64,000 nucleotides of DNA from an uncultured Burkholderiales bacterium (GTDB lineage Bacteria; Pseudomonadota; Gammaproteobacteria; Burkholderiales; Burkholderiaceae), in the NCBI GenBank assembly GCA_946480465.1, contig CAMLJY010000016.1, positions 38,391 to 102,390 of the forward strand. The letters are read 5' to 3'. The translations under genes and the position numbers were made by a program. Below are positions 52,289 through 56,975 of the stretch, piece by piece. Every line of letters starts with the position of its first letter. The first letter of the stretch is position 1. Under the pieces are notes generated by a model, which was not told where the DNA came from, did no database searches, and saw only the letters and a list, made by a program, of their open reading frames with translations.

Positions 52289-52645
52289 TCAAGCGAGTTG
52301 GGCCTTCACCTTCGCCACGATGCCGCCAAAGGCAGCCGGGTCGTTGACAGCCAGATCGGCGAGGACCTTGCGGTCGATGTCGATCGAAGCCTTCTTCAGG
52401 CCGGCCATGAACTTGCTGTAGCTGAGGCCCAGACCACGCGCAGCGGCGTTGATACGAGCAATCCACAGCTGGCGGAAGACCCGCTTGCGGGTGCGGCGGT
52501 CACGGTAGGCGTACTGGCCCGCCTTCATCACCGCCTGCTTGGCGATGCGGAAGACGTTCTTGCGACGACCACGGAAGCCCTTGGCCAGGGCCAGGACCTT
52601 CTTGTGACGGGCGCGGGCGGTTACACCACGTTTGACGCGAGGCAT
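52289..52645 (-). CDS. rplT: Ribosomal protein L20
   Basis: L20 (118 residues) is a basic 23S rRNA-binding protein needed early in large-subunit assembly. It opens [20 protein letters not shown] and contains [20 protein letters not shown], the family signature. It follows rpmI by 25 bases in the conserved infC-rpmI-rplT order. Confidence 0.98.
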
Positions 52646-52670
52646 TGCTTACTCCTTGTTCCGTCTCAGA

Positions 52671-52874
52671 TCACAGGCCGGCGAACGGCAGCATCTGCGC
52701 CATGTGGCCCATGTTGGTCTCGTGCACGTTGGCGGCGCCACGGAGGTGGCGCTTGCGCGTGGTGGACTTCTTGGTGAGGATGTGGCGCTTGAACGCCTGA
52801 CCGCGCTTGACGGTACCACCCGGACGGACGCGGAACCGCTTGGCCGCGCTCTTCTTGGTCTTCATCTTGGGCAT
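52671..52874 (-). CDS. rpmI: Ribosomal protein L35
   Basis: L35 (67 residues) begins [20 protein letters not shown], the family signature, and is rich in Lys and Arg. GAAGGAG precedes the ATG at 52874; the in-frame extension upstream is untranslated leader. A nested hairpin in the infC-rpmI gap may be the L20 control site. Confidence 0.97.
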
Positions 52875-52896
52875 GACTGCTCCTTCTAAGTGACCC

Positions 52897-52941
52897 CTGC
52901 AGGCGGTCCGGACAGTGTCCGAACGCTTGTACGGCCTGCAG
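52897..52941 (-). promoter_or_regulatory. Nested hairpin in the infC-rpmI gap, candidate L20 autoregulatory leader
   Basis: CTGCAGGC and GCCTGCAG form an outer eight-base stem enclosing an inner CGGAC/GTCCG hairpin, 23 bases upstream of rpmI. In several bacteria L20 represses rpmI-rplT by binding such leader RNA. The match here is by position and shape only. Confidence 0.4.
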
Positions 52942-52994
52942 CGGCTTCTTTCCACTCGCCCCGGTGACCGACCGAAGCGGGGAATCCTTGCGAG

Positions 52995-53546
52995 CTACTG
53001 CTTCTTCTTGGGCGCCAGCACCATGATCATCTGGCGCCCTTCGAGCTTGGGCATGTGCTCCACCACGGCCACGTCCGCCAGCTCGTCGCGGATGCGCTCC
53101 AAGAGGCGCATGCCGATGTCCTGGTGCGTAATCTCGCGGCCGCGGAAGCGCAGCGTAACCTTGCCCTTGTCGCCATCCTCGGCGATGAAACGCCGCAGAT
53201 TGCGCATCTTGATGTTGTAGTCGCCTTCGTCGGTCCCGGGCCGGAACTTGACTTCCTTGACCTCGATGACCTTCTGCTTCGACTTGGCTTCGGCAGCCTT
53301 CTTTTGTTCCAGGTACTTGAACTTGCCGTAGTCCATCAGCCGGCACACCGGCGGATCGGCGGTGGCGGCAATCTCGACCAGATCGACGTCGGCCTCGCCG
53401 GAGAGCCGCAGCGCCTCTTGGATGCTCACGATGCCCAGAGGCTCGTTGTTGACCCCGTTCAAGCGAACCATGGGCGCCATGATTTCGCGGTTGAGTCGAT
53501 GCTTGCGCTCGACATTGGGCATCCGGCGATCGAGAAAAGTAGCGAT
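52995..53546 (-). CDS. infC: Translation initiation factor IF-3, AUC start
   Basis: IF-3 (183 residues) checks start-codon pairing on the 30S subunit. It shows [36 protein letters not shown] (family signature) and [18 protein letters not shown] place the start at the ATC codon at 53546, giving (M)[15 protein letters not shown], because AGGGG lies at the proper distance upstream while the first ATG (53522) has no ribosome site. IF-3 genes of many bacteria use AUU or AUC so that IF-3 represses its own translation. The thrS stop is 76 bases upstream. Confidence 0.92.
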
Positions 53547-53621
53547 GGTGCTAACCCCTACACGGCCCCAAGGCAAGCAACGGGCTCGAACAAAGCAAAT
53601 GCGCGCGCCAGAGGACCAACG

Positions 53622-55538
53622 TCACACCTTCTGGGCGATGTCGCCGAGGATCTTCTGCGCGAAGTCTTCGACGCCCATCACGCCGAGGTCTTGATTGCCC
53701 CGAGCGCGCACGGCAACGGCCCCGCTTGCCTTCTCCTTGTCGCCAGCGACCAGGATGTACGGGACCTTCTGCATTGAATGCTCACGGATTTTATACGTGA
53801 TCTTCTCGTTCCGGAGATCGGTGATCACTCTAACTCCCTGTTTTTGAAGTGTTTTCGCTACTTCAGCAACGTAGGTTGCGTGGTTGTCCGTGATGCTCGC
53901 CACGACCACCTGCACCGGAGACAGCCACGCCGGGAGCGCGCCCGCATGCTGCTCGATCAGGATGCCGATGAAGCGCTCGAGGCTGCCGACGATGGCGCGG
54001 TGCAGCATCAGGGGGCGCTGCCGGCTGCCATCTTCGGCCACGTACTCGGCGTCCAGGCGCTCGGGCATGTTGGGGTCGATCTGGATCGTGCCGCATTGCC
54101 ACTGCCGACCCAGCGCATCCTTCAGCGTGTACTCGACCTTGGGACCGTAGAAGGCGCCCTCGCCCGGCGCGATCTCGAACTCGCAACCGGAGCGGCGCAG
54201 GCCTTCCATCAGCGCTTTTTCGGCCCGGTCCCAGGACTCGTCGCTTCCGATGCGGGCCTCTGGCCGCGTCGCCACCTTGTAGATGATGTCCGTGAAGCCG
54301 AAATCCTTGTAGACCCTTTGCAGCAGCGACGTGAAGGCGGCGCACTCGGCGAGCACCTGGTCTTCCGTGCAGAAGATGTGGCCGTCGTCCTGGGTGAAGG
54401 CGCGCACGCGCATGATGCCGTGCAAACCGCCGGTCGGTTCGTTGCGGTGGCACTGGCCGAACTCGCCGAAGCGCAGCGGCAGGTCGCGGTAGCTCTTGAT
54501 GCCCTGCTTGAAGATCAGCAGGTGGCCGGGGCAGTTCATCGGCTTCAGTGCGTACTCGCGCCTCTCCGATTCGGTCGTGAACATGTTCTCGCGGTACTTC
54601 TGCCAGTGGCCGGTCTTTTCCCACAGGCCCTGGTCGAGGATCTGCGGGCCCTTGACCTCGTGGTAGCCGTTGTCGCGGTAGACGCGGCGCATGTACTGCT
54701 CGACCTCCTGCCAGATCGTCCAGCCCTTGGGGTGCCAGAAGACCGTGCCGGGCGAGTGCTCGTCGATGTGGAACAGGTCCAGCTCGCGGCCGAGGCGGCG
54801 GTGGTCGCGCTTCTCGGCCTCTTCCAGCCGCATGAGGTACTTCTGCAGGTCGTCTTTCGTCGCCCAGGCGGTGCCGTAGATGCGCTGCAGCATCTCGTTG
54901 CGGTGGTCGCCGCGCCAGTAGGCGCCGGCCACCTTCATCAGCTTGAAGTGCTTGAGCTTGCCGGTGCTGGGGACGTGGGGGCCGCGGCACAGGTCTTCGA
55001 AGCCACCTTCGCGGTACAGCGAGACATCCTCGCCGGCCGGGATGCTGCCGATGATCTCGGCCTTGTAGTGCTCGCCGAGACCCTTGAAATAAGCCACGGC
55101 CTCGTCGCGCGGCAGCACCCGGCGCGTCACCGGCTCGTCCTTCTTCGCCAGTTCGGTCATGCGCGCCTCGATGGCGGCGAGGTCGTCCGGCGTGAAGGGG
55201 CGCTTGTACGAGAAGTCGTAGTAGAAGCCGTCCTCGATCACGGGGCCGATGGTGACCTGGGCCTCGGGGAACAGTTCCTTCACCGCGTAGGCGAGCAGGT
55301 GGGCGGTGGAGTGGCGGATCATCTCGAGGCCCGCGGCGTCCTTGTCAGTGACGATCGCGAGCCGCGCATCGGATTCGATCAGGTGGCTCGTATCGACCAG
55401 CCTGCCCTCGCCTTCGCCCACCCGGCCGCCGAGGGCCGCCTTGGCCAGGCCGGCACCGATCGAGGCTGCAACTTCGGCGACGGTGACCGGGTGGGGGTAC
55501 TCGCGTTGGGAACCATCAGGCAGCGTGATCTTGATCAT
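53622..55538 (-). CDS. thrS: Threonine-tRNA ligase
   Basis: ThrRS (638 residues) has an N-terminal TGS domain ([20 protein letters not shown]), an editing domain (about 65-225, with [20 protein letters not shown]), a class II core with [17 protein letters not shown] (zinc-binding Cys) and motif 2 [19 protein letters not shown], and a C-terminal anticodon domain ([19 protein letters not shown]). Length is standard. It heads the thrS-infC-rpmI-rplT-pheST-ihfA run. Upstream are a threonine-rich leader peptide and a terminator, which indicate attenuation by threonyl-tRNA supply. Confidence 0.98.
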
Positions 55539-55594
55539 GGTGGGCTTTCGCGATCGGAGCGCAGCGGCTGCGCAAACTGGGTGAGGCGGGCAAC

Positions 55595-55624
55595 AAAAAA
55601 GCGCGGTGGCAAGACCGCGCTTTT
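55595..55624 (-). terminator. thrS attenuator terminator
   Basis: On the minus strand AAAAGCGCGGT pairs with ACCGCGCTTTT over eleven bases with a six-base loop and ends in TTTTTT. It lies 46 bases after the leader peptide stop and 56 bases before thrS. An upstream segment (55660-55667) can pair over eight bases with its 5' arm as an antiterminator. Confidence 0.85.
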
Positions 55625-55670
55625 GTTGTTCGGGGGAGGAGGAGCGAACAGGCGTGACGGCGCGGCCGAC

Positions 55671-55715
55671 CTAGGCGGCAGTGGCGAACAACGTAGTTCG
55701 CGGTGTCACAACCAT
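55671..55715 (-). CDS. Threonine-rich leader peptide of thrS
   Basis: This 14-codon open frame reads MVVTPRTTLFATAA, with four threonine codons (ACA, ACT, ACG, ACT). A GAGAAAGG sequence lies just upstream of the ATG, a TACAAT promoter box about 40 bases upstream, and a strong terminator plus thrS downstream. Together these form a ribosome-stalling attenuator sensing threonyl-tRNA. Such control of thrS is not the E. coli mechanism (which is a translational operator), so this is a notable observation. Confidence 0.65.
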   Translation of the reverse strand: MVVTPRTTLFATAA

Positions 55716-55754
55716 GGTGCCTTTCTCGCCCTTGTGAGTGGATGGAAGCCGCGG

Positions 55755-55760
55755 ATTGTA
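55755..55760 (-). promoter_or_regulatory. Candidate -10 box of the thrS transcript
   Basis: TACAAT on the minus strand fits a sigma-70 -10 element and would start transcription about 33 bases before the leader ATG. The -35 region (TGCGGA at 17 bases) is poor. Confidence 0.45.
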
Positions 55761-55826
55761 GACGAGCCCCTCCGATCTCCGCAGCCCAGGCCGCGCCCTG
55801 GTTGCGGTACATGGCAGATGCGCACG

Positions 55827-56975
55827 CTAGAACGGCAACAGGCTCTGATTCGCGGTGCGTTCGACCAGCCACGCGCCGGCCAGCATGATCGCGCCGAGCG
55901 AACCAGCCACCATCACGCCGGGCACGTACAGGGCCTGCCGGCGCAGCCCGTACAGGACAGGCACGGCGAGCAGCACCATCGCCAGCTGGCCCAGCTCGAG
56001 GCCCAGGTTGAACTGGAACAGCGCCCAGCCGAAGGCAGCTGGCGGCAGCTGCAGCTCGCCCAGCACGCCGGCGAAGCCGAAGCCGTGGACGAGCCCGAAG
56101 AGGAAGGTGACGAGGCCGCGGCCACGCCGGATCAGCGGGCGGATGTTGTCGAGCGCCGCCAGCATGATGGTCAGCGCGATCGCCGGCTCCACGATGGATG
56201 CCGGCAGCCGCGCCCAGCCCAGCGTGGCCAGCGCCAGCGTGACGGAGTGCGCGAGCGTGAACAGCGTGACCGTCTTCGCCACCGGCCACAGCGCGGCCCG
56301 CCAGCCGGGCACCGCTCGCCAACGGCCGTGCTCGCGGCGCAGCACCGCCGGCAGCAGCAGGCACAGCAGGAACAGCAGGTGGTCGTAGCCGGTGACGATG
56401 TGGTGCACGCCTTCGCGGACGAAGGACGCAGCGGACGAAGGCGTGGCGGCCGTGTCACCGTCGGCGCCGGCGGAGGTGGCGGGCTCCGGCACGGTGGGAT
56501 CCAGCATGCGCACGTCATCGTCGCCGCCCCCGGCCACGGGCACGCGGAGGATGCCGCGGTGGGTCGGGTCGATGTCGGCGAACAGCGTGTAGCGCAACAG
56601 GGTCGAGGTGTCGATGCGGCACGGGGTGCTCAGCAGCAGCACTGCATACGCGCCGTCCTGCCGGCGCTCCAGCCCATGCCCGTCGACGCTGAATCGGCAG
56701 TCCTTGGCCGCCAGCGCGCCCAGGGCCAGCGCATCGATGGCCGGCCAGGCGGCCTTCACCTCGCCCCAGGTCAGCTGTCGGTCGCCATCGGCATCGAGCG
56801 GTAGCGCGGCATCGAGGTCGCGCAGCGCGATGTCCCAGCGCAGGCGGCTGCCTTGGGACGCGGGCTCGACGACCAAGTACGCGTCGCTGGCCTTGTGGGC
56901 CTGCGCTGCGCCGCCGGCCAGCAAGAGCAGCAGCATGAGGGCGAGGCGCATCGCGGCAGTGAAGTGCAGGTCCAT
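55827..56975 (-). CDS. HupE/UreJ-type membrane protein with periplasmic EF-hand domain
   Basis: This 382-residue protein has a signal peptide (about 1-26, AAQA-HK), a periplasmic domain (about 27-185) and a C-terminal HupE/UreJ membrane domain (about 190-382, six to seven helices). The periplasmic part contains a canonical EF-hand calcium loop at residues 61-72 (DADGDRQLTWGE). The membrane part has the His-containing family motifs GVHHIVTGYDHLLFLL, FTLAHSVTLALATLG and FGLVHGFGFAGVLGE, suited to Ni2+/Co2+ or other metal binding. GGGAGGA precedes the ATG at 56975. It lies 13 bases after the TPR gene and is the last of the DUF4331 run. The transported ion is unknown. Confidence 0.82.
   Translation of the reverse strand: MDLHFTAAMRLALMLLLLLAGGAAQAHKASDAYLVVEPASQGSRLRWDIALRDLDAALPLDADGDRQLTWGEVKAAWPAIDALALGALAAKDCRFSVDGHGLERRQDGAYAVLLLSTPCRIDTSTLLRYTLFADIDPTHRGILRVPVAGGGDDDVRMLDPTVPEPATSAGADGDTAATPSSAASFVREGVHHIVTGYDHLLFLLCLLLPAVLRREHGRWRAVPGWRAALWPVAKTVTLFTLAHSVTLALATLGWARLPASIVEPAIALTIMLAALDNIRPLIRRGRGLVTFLFGLVHGFGFAGVLGELQLPPAAFGWALFQFNLGLELGQLAMVLLAVPVLYGLRRQALYVPGVMVAGSLGAIMLAGAWLVERTANQSLLPF

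Follow-up and report, generated by a model that had tools for sequence, protein, structure and literature searches.

The leader of the threonine–tRNA ligase gene thrS in this Burkholderiales DNA is, on the evidence of its sequence, very probably a ribosome-mediated transcription attenuator. The window, by which we mean the whole stretch of 64,000 nucleotides that was analysed, carries thrS on its minus strand (53622–55538; TIGR00418, 724 bits against a cut-off of 384), and the upstream region considered here covers 55538–55760 of that strand. The reading is built on a short frame, its threonine codons, the position of its stop codon, an intrinsic terminator, a −10 box and sequence complementarity. 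On the same strand, infC, rpmI and rplT come after thrS (52289–53576; TIGR00168, TIGR00001 and TIGR01032). A pattern scan found no terminator-like site on the thrS strand before the end of rplT, and co-transcription of thrS with infC-rpmI-rplT is likely; a switch in front of thrS would also feed into infC and the two ribosomal-protein genes, as the earlier note had anticipated.

All elements of the putative leader lie on the minus strand. The candidate promoter is represented by the −10-like box TACAAT (55755–55760), upstream of which no −35 could be recognised, and is followed by the Shine–Dalgarno-like sequence GAGAAAGG (55720–55727), the GAAAGG part of which is at least 90% conserved per column among 51 aligned leaders. 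The earlier note had read a 14-codon frame with four Thr codons, MVVTPRTTLFATAA, from the ATG at 55715–55713 to the stop codon TAG at 55673–55671 (frame 55671–55715; ATG GTT GTG ACA CCG CGA ACT ACG TTG TTC GCC ACT GCC GCC TAG). Frame, Thr codons and stop are as described there; the conserved start, however, is the GTG at 55709–55707, two codons after that ATG. Since 62 of the 63 leaders of this type have ATG where the window, the remaining one, has GTG, we take the 12-codon frame from 55709, MTPRTTLFATAA (55671–55709), as the conserved product, with Thr at codons 2, 5, 6 and 10. The ATG at 55715 may be used in the window too, and an upstream ATG two codons earlier is found in 11 of the 63. Between the leader stop and the hairpin lies the GC-rich segment GTCGGCCGCGCC.

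The terminator proposed in the earlier note is likewise present (55595–55624), with an 11-bp stem formed by AAAAGCGCGGT (55624–55614) and ACCGCGCTTTT (55607–55597), a loop CTTGCC in which no Thr anticodon triplet can be read, and six Ts (55600–55595), the last of which is 56 nt from the thrS ATG. The idea that terminator loops act as anticodon mimics for ThrRS, judged by inspection of the sequences, was set aside. A standard pattern scan of 55300–56100 returned no promoter and no terminator, the latter probably because A–U pairs were counted into the stem, leaving the tail short of Ts. Two further segments matter for the proposed switch. Segment 1, ACACCGCGAACT (55695–55706), comprises leader codons 2–5, the stretch under a ribosome stalled at Thr2 or Thr5; it is conserved in sequence and is the proposed partner of segment 2. 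Segment 2, the candidate antiterminator strand AGGTCGGCCGCGCC (55659–55672), lies at and after the leader stop and is complementary to AGCGCGGTCTTGCCA of the terminator; within it, GGCCGCGC at 55667–55660 can pair with GCGCGGTC through eight pairs, one of them G–U, in agreement with the earlier proposal. Folding of the window leader gives z = −3.3, with 0 of 200 shuffles as good.

The comparison with relatives drew on two samples. An 80-sequence set comprises the window and 79 of 80 fetched thrS loci (L078, which begins within thrS, is left out), and a search of 150 genomes from the order, centred on a Ralstonia genome, found thrS in 148 and supplied 143 more, for a total of 223 loci. Excluded from these are L123, in which no start could be placed, L217, which is 64 nt long, and any thrS gene that was partial, unlisted or at the end of a contig; L081–L083 duplicate loci of the 80-sequence set, and three genomes yield two thrS copies each. 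The 63 leaders beginning MTPRT (52 from the 80-sequence set and 11 from the genome set) were gathered by matching a pattern in which codons 1–5 are largely fixed, so that sameness there is partly built in and these codons provide no free test; the pattern places no constraint on where the frame stops, on the codons after the fifth, or on spacer, terminator and −10 box. A relaxed search tolerated up to 4 substitutions in codons 1–5. Terminators were called from a hairpin-plus-T signal with a score of our own of at least 20, and a Thr-dense frame was defined as a short frame preceded by a Shine–Dalgarno sequence with at least three Thr in six residues, 174 loci being long enough for this test. 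The list of Thr-rich frames and the first version of the folding analysis rest on 125 genome-set loci, the 18 added later being without a leader, and the 16 non-MTP leaders of the 83-leader tests were hand-picked from that list.

The arrangement is widely kept. Conservation of the frame and its Thr codons among relatives was one of the points on which the earlier note had staked its proposal, and it holds: 52 of the 80 sequences (Burkholderiales type) retain, together with thrS, the frame with its Thr codons and stop position, the terminator and the −10 box, and Thr-rich variants occur elsewhere in the order. One further locus (L008) has the MTPRT frame with no recognised terminator, one (L031) has its leader start changed to ATA and an intact terminator, 18 of the 80 have a terminator without the leader, six have neither, and two Ralstonia loci carry MIQAPRTTTASERQ with a different terminator. 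In the relaxed search the MTPRT codons appear in 53 of the 80, 42 exactly and 11 with one change; all 11 changes in codons 1–5 are silent (CGA/CGG, ACT/ACG) or exchange ATG and GTG. Its other matches in this set come from the two Ralstonia loci and from L031, whose leader is decayed, and the genome set adds MTPLT, MAPRT, MAVRT, MRPPT and others, together with a few out-of-frame or likely chance matches. The variant leader of the Ralstonia loci (L077 and L080) stands about 275–285 nt upstream of the thrS match. Inspected by eye, GCACC..ACTAC is complementary to GTAGT..GGTGC past the stop, and the terminator's AAAACGC to GCGTTTT, a plan in common with the MTPRT leaders in a different sequence. 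A match to rnk_pseudo overlapping the L080 leader (29 bits against a gathering score of 55) was taken as chance.

Over all loci, the hairpin-plus-T signal occurs in 176 of 223 upstream regions, compared with 5.7% of shuffles, and a Thr-dense short frame precedes the terminator in 69 of 174 loci where 1.4 would be expected (43 of 72 in the 80-sequence set; 26 of 102 in the genome set, most of whose loci are thus without a Thr-dense leader by this test). Other amino acids are near or under expectation in the 174 loci, with the exception of Glu (7 against 0.3 expected); the Glu-dense frames are perhaps another reading of the purine-rich Shine–Dalgarno region. Thr-rich leaders of the genome set that do not begin MTPRT include MAVRTTTTHP, MSFRTTTTGTLNLG, MFKRTTTTRISR and MQLNRTTTTS, and among the short frames at the 103 genome-set loci with a terminator the commonest early dipeptide is R-T (40), followed by T-T (24). 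The 19-base core, with at most one mismatch, has 12 matches in the 150 genomes, every one of them on the same strand as thrS and 312–392 nt before the thrS model match. With two or three mismatches there are 60 matches, five of them at thrS when compared by eye; those elsewhere look like chance, since a reversed control pattern also matches many genomes.

Is the leader frame translated, and is it threonine that it would sense? Among features outside the collecting pattern, the distance from in-frame stop to terminator has a median of 46 nt (interquartile range 43–51) and is 35–65 nt in 55 of the 63 MTPRT leaders, compared with nine and 11 of the 63 for the other two frames. After codon 5, Thr accounts for 125 of 527 residues (24%) in these leaders, against 1–3% in the other frames. 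Against the reading, some leaders carry only two Thr codons. A short frame with its own Shine–Dalgarno sequence and stop points to translation, and the putative leader is enriched in codons for the amino acid of the gene it would control.

These features bear on a rival explanation, in which the hairpin does no more than terminate a transcript from upstream (tRNA-Val in many relatives, a membrane-protein-like gene here) and the short frame is fortuitous. In its favour, thrS has a sense tRNA gene ahead of it in 97 of the 143 genome-set loci and in two of the 80 others; these 99 loci hold 99 tRNA-Val(GAC) and one tRNA-Asp. The 18 sequences with a terminator and no leader also agree with it. The window, in contrast, has no tRNA near thrS, and its TACAAT box, noted earlier as promoter-like, stands between the leader and the gene upstream, in the position occupied by a −10 (at least five of six positions matching) in 42 of 62 MTPRT leaders (7% for shuffles; median 50 nt before the leader start). 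The placement of the stop and the enrichment in Thr indicate a translated leader, and the core with no or one mismatch occurs only at thrS in 150 genomes. We therefore regard termination of an upstream transcript as an improbable account of the whole. In four tRNA-bearing loci (L104, L117, L120 and L125) the tRNA is directly upstream and the terminator ends 12–20 nt before the thrS start, so that their thrS mRNA seems to depend on read-through of the terminator. Six others (L011, L016, L026, L029, L032 and L035, three of them titled Limnohabitans) have a promoter-like TAAAAT and then a terminator ending 16–18 nt before thrS, with no leader frame.

A second alternative, to which we give an equally low probability, is that the conserved core GGTTATGACACCGCGAACT works by its sequence, either as an arresting MTPRT nascent peptide or as an RNA site for ThrRS or another protein, the Thr codons being secondary. 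An alignment of 51 leaders, with a mean column identity of 47%, shows no variation in the block GGTT.TGACACCGCG.AC and almost none in the Shine–Dalgarno sequence. The GGTT directly before the leader start (55710–55713 in the window) belongs to this invariant block in the 51 aligned leaders; CGTT is found in three of the 63. Codon 5 is ACT in 59 of the 63 leaders and codon 2 is ACA in all 53 MTPRT leaders of the 80-sequence set, in which neither codon 2 nor codon 3 shows a silent change; ACT and ACA make up 4.6% and 5.0%, respectively, of Thr codons in thrS (for ACT, counted in the 51 thrS genes of these loci). The Pro-Arg pair and the rare CGA (3.1% of Arg codons) would be superfluous in a plain threonine sensor. 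Judged from these sequences, silent-site conservation in the MTPRT leaders exceeds what coding alone would ask for, and the reasons may lie in RNA pairing, in rare-codon sensing or in a sequence-specific role, the first two of which could equally explain it. Against a role for the core as such, other loci retain only R-T followed by Thr runs, as in three of the variants listed above (MAVRTTTTHP, MFKRTTTTRISR and MQLNRTTTTS), or P-L-T or P-P-T, which makes the Thr codons the wider constant, and Thr remains at 24% beyond codon 5.

A third possibility, a trans-acting small RNA with control of thrS as a side effect, would account for a short terminated RNA with a conserved core but is highly improbable, given that the frame has the Thr content and the stop position of a translated one, that all 12 near-exact core matches lie at thrS, and that neither in the window nor in six relatives does the leader attain the gathering score of any Rfam family, small RNAs included.

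Attenuation by a translating ribosome further implies that the terminator competes with another structure, and an antiterminator pairing that would exclude the terminator is supported statistically. In the window the predicted antiterminator helix has an energy of −20.1 kcal/mol (z = −2.4; p about 0.01 against shuffled spacers). Across the leaders, spacer and terminator are more complementary than in shuffles, with a mean z of −1.28 and with p < 0.05 for 27 of 83, and a leader's own spacer–terminator combination outscores swapped ones in 39 of 63 (p = 0.0097). The spacer bases of the antiterminator could mostly also pair with the leader, with an overlap of at least four in 79 of 83. One antiterminator position covaries, being paired in 30 of 46 usable leaders against 19.3 ± 3.0 for shuffles, on a tree that offers only 3–4 independent pairs, a number without statistical power; of the 63 leaders, 10 lacked a usable CGCG core and seven lacked GCGCGG. 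Pairing of segments 1 and 2 within the leader finds no support beyond composition: own combinations are no better than swapped ones (p = 0.33, 63 leaders), and shuffles are beaten at p < 0.05 in only nine of 83.

To model the competition, transcripts ending at the terminator loop were folded with the bases under a ribosome masked, capture of the terminator's 5′ arm being the readout. For the 63 leaders, mean capture is 0.70, 0.62 and 0.61 with the ribosome at Thr2, Thr5 and Thr6, and 0.49 both with the ribosome at the stop and without a ribosome; with shuffled spacers the corresponding values are 0.61, 0.58, 0.58, 0.55 and 0.56. In the real leaders, then, the antiterminator is favoured by a stall at Thr2 or Thr5 and disfavoured when the ribosome is at the stop or absent. 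The difference between stall and stop is 0.208 for Thr2 against 0.057 for the null (p = 3e-6), 0.128 against 0.033 for Thr5 (p = 2e-4), and above the null for Thr6 (p = 6e-4), all over 63 loci, although these p-values overstate independence because the leaders are related. Capture at Thr6 alone does not differ from the null (p = 0.11, 63 loci), and the effects are moderate to modest, the difference exceeding 0.1 in 38 of 63 leaders for Thr2 and 27 of 63 for Thr5. An earlier version with 83 leaders and everything upstream masked gave 0.69 for stall, 0.49 for stop and 0.50 without a ribosome, against nulls of 0.60, 0.53 and 0.55. For the window itself, predicted capture is 0.63–0.64 when stalled, 0.35 at the stop and 0.60 without a ribosome; this last value, about as high as the stalled one, would be unwanted in a classical attenuator. 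The amino-acid-attenuator layout that the earlier note had seen is borne out in the conservation of frame, stop and Thr, in the terminator and in the antiterminator statistics; the 1:2 pairing has no such support.

From these elements we infer stalling, the switch itself, any 1:2 pairing and read-through into the operon, in the following sequence. Transcription would begin past TACAAT, and a ribosome would enter the leader frame MTPRTT.... With an ample supply of charged tRNA-Thr, this ribosome would reach the stop codon, the segment just past it would be covered or buried, and RNA polymerase would be halted by the terminator ahead of thrS. With charged tRNA-Thr in short supply, the ribosome would instead stall at Thr2, Thr5 or Thr6, over segment 1, and the segment past the stop could then base-pair with the terminator's loop and 5′ arm; once the antiterminator had formed, polymerase would continue into thrS and probably into infC-rpmI-rplT.

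How such a leader arose was considered on a quick tree built from the 80 ThrRS sequences, on which counts of changes cannot tell gain from loss. The MTPRT leader is scattered over the deep forks of this tree. Its presence and absence call for at least 12 changes without the two Ralstonia rows, or 13 if those count as lacking it, eight of them forced by starred branches; in the window's own clade (16 rows, SH-aLRT 94, not starred) it is present in 16 of 16. Two loci, L020 and L024, have very similar ThrRS sequences (end branches 0.0045 and 0.023), and only L020 has the full leader, L024 having a promoter-like box and terminator only, which suggests a recent loss with the terminator kept. The L020 record is titled Chitinophaga pinensis, but its ThrRS groups with Burkholderiales sequences and the bin is probably mislabelled.

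We offer, as a tentative scenario that is considerably more likely to be wrong than right, that betaproteobacterial thrS was early controlled by terminator read-through, at first of the upstream tRNA-Val gene, and that a Thr leader was grafted on; later lineages would then have put a promoter in place of the tRNA, as in the window, or retained the terminator after losing the leader, with the rare-codon core of MTPRT (ACA CCG CGA ACT) adding isoacceptor-specific or nascent-peptide sensing to plain threonine sensing. Whatever its origin, the series of leader plus terminator, decayed leader and terminator alone provides natural deletions for probing each part.

Leader-peptide attenuators are known for the amino-acid operons trp, his, thr, ilv and leu. 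Like these, the thrS leader has a short frame rich in the relevant codon, then an antiterminator strand and an intrinsic terminator before the gene; the genes there are biosynthetic, whereas here a tRNA-ligase gene would be controlled. For thrS itself, E. coli ThrRS binds its own mRNA at a translational operator, and in Firmicutes ligase genes, thrS included, are under T-box control; the leader proposed here would share with both the control of ligase genes at the RNA level. Over 55500–55900 there is no match to the Rfam Thr_leader (RF00506) at E up to 10 and none to any Rfam leader family, and the T-box has no match in the window at its gathering threshold or in 55500–55900 at E up to 10. A weak match over the leader to the Burkholderia RNA ncS025 (16 bits against a gathering score of 46) was rejected as an identification because ncS25 sits between BCAL3007 and BCAL3008 (PMC10117139). 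Elsewhere in the window, a sucA RNA motif (RF01070) lies at 1195–1279 on the minus strand, at 70 bits and above its gathering score.

Leader peptides in front of ligase genes do have precedents. The pheST attenuator of gamma-proteobacteria is a known case, and attenuators are known or proposed for trpS and leuS of Streptomyces (PMC1262725); pheST resembles the proposed thrS leader in subjecting a tRNA-ligase operon to leader-peptide attenuation, and differs in its amino acid, Phe, and its lineage. A predicted leader frame before cysS of Rhodobacterales, uORFC-8-2, also combines codons for the ligase's own amino acid with a terminator, but its Cys-Cys pair is usually at codons 14–15 and it belongs to alphaproteobacteria (PMC8632094). 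Closest in its target is Streptomyces lividans, in which leaders have been proposed before alaS, leuS, trpS and thrS; its thrL-thrS likewise has a Thr leader before thrS, but MKRVRPFLETTPGFVPAR, with two Thr, is transcribed leaderless, and termination there is called unclear, a uridine-rich sequence being missing (PMC8079986). The earlier note's word 'unusual' for attenuation of a Thr-tRNA ligase is therefore fair, although the case is not unique. The string 'threon' is absent from the main texts of three structured-RNA surveys (PMC11109978, PMC8632094 and PMC6429828), the accessible text of Naville and Gautheret mentions threonyl-tRNA synthetase once, for E. coli (PMC2965389), and among the matches listed in the literature searched there was no report of a thrS leader peptide in betaproteobacteria.

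We conclude that the kind of control, an attenuator of a ligase gene, is known, and that the gene and lineage are without a report found in the literature searched. Beside the translational operator of E. coli and the T-box of Firmicutes, leader-peptide attenuation appears to be a third form of thrS control, in many betaproteobacteria, which would make thrS a gene for comparing the evolution of three unrelated sensors.
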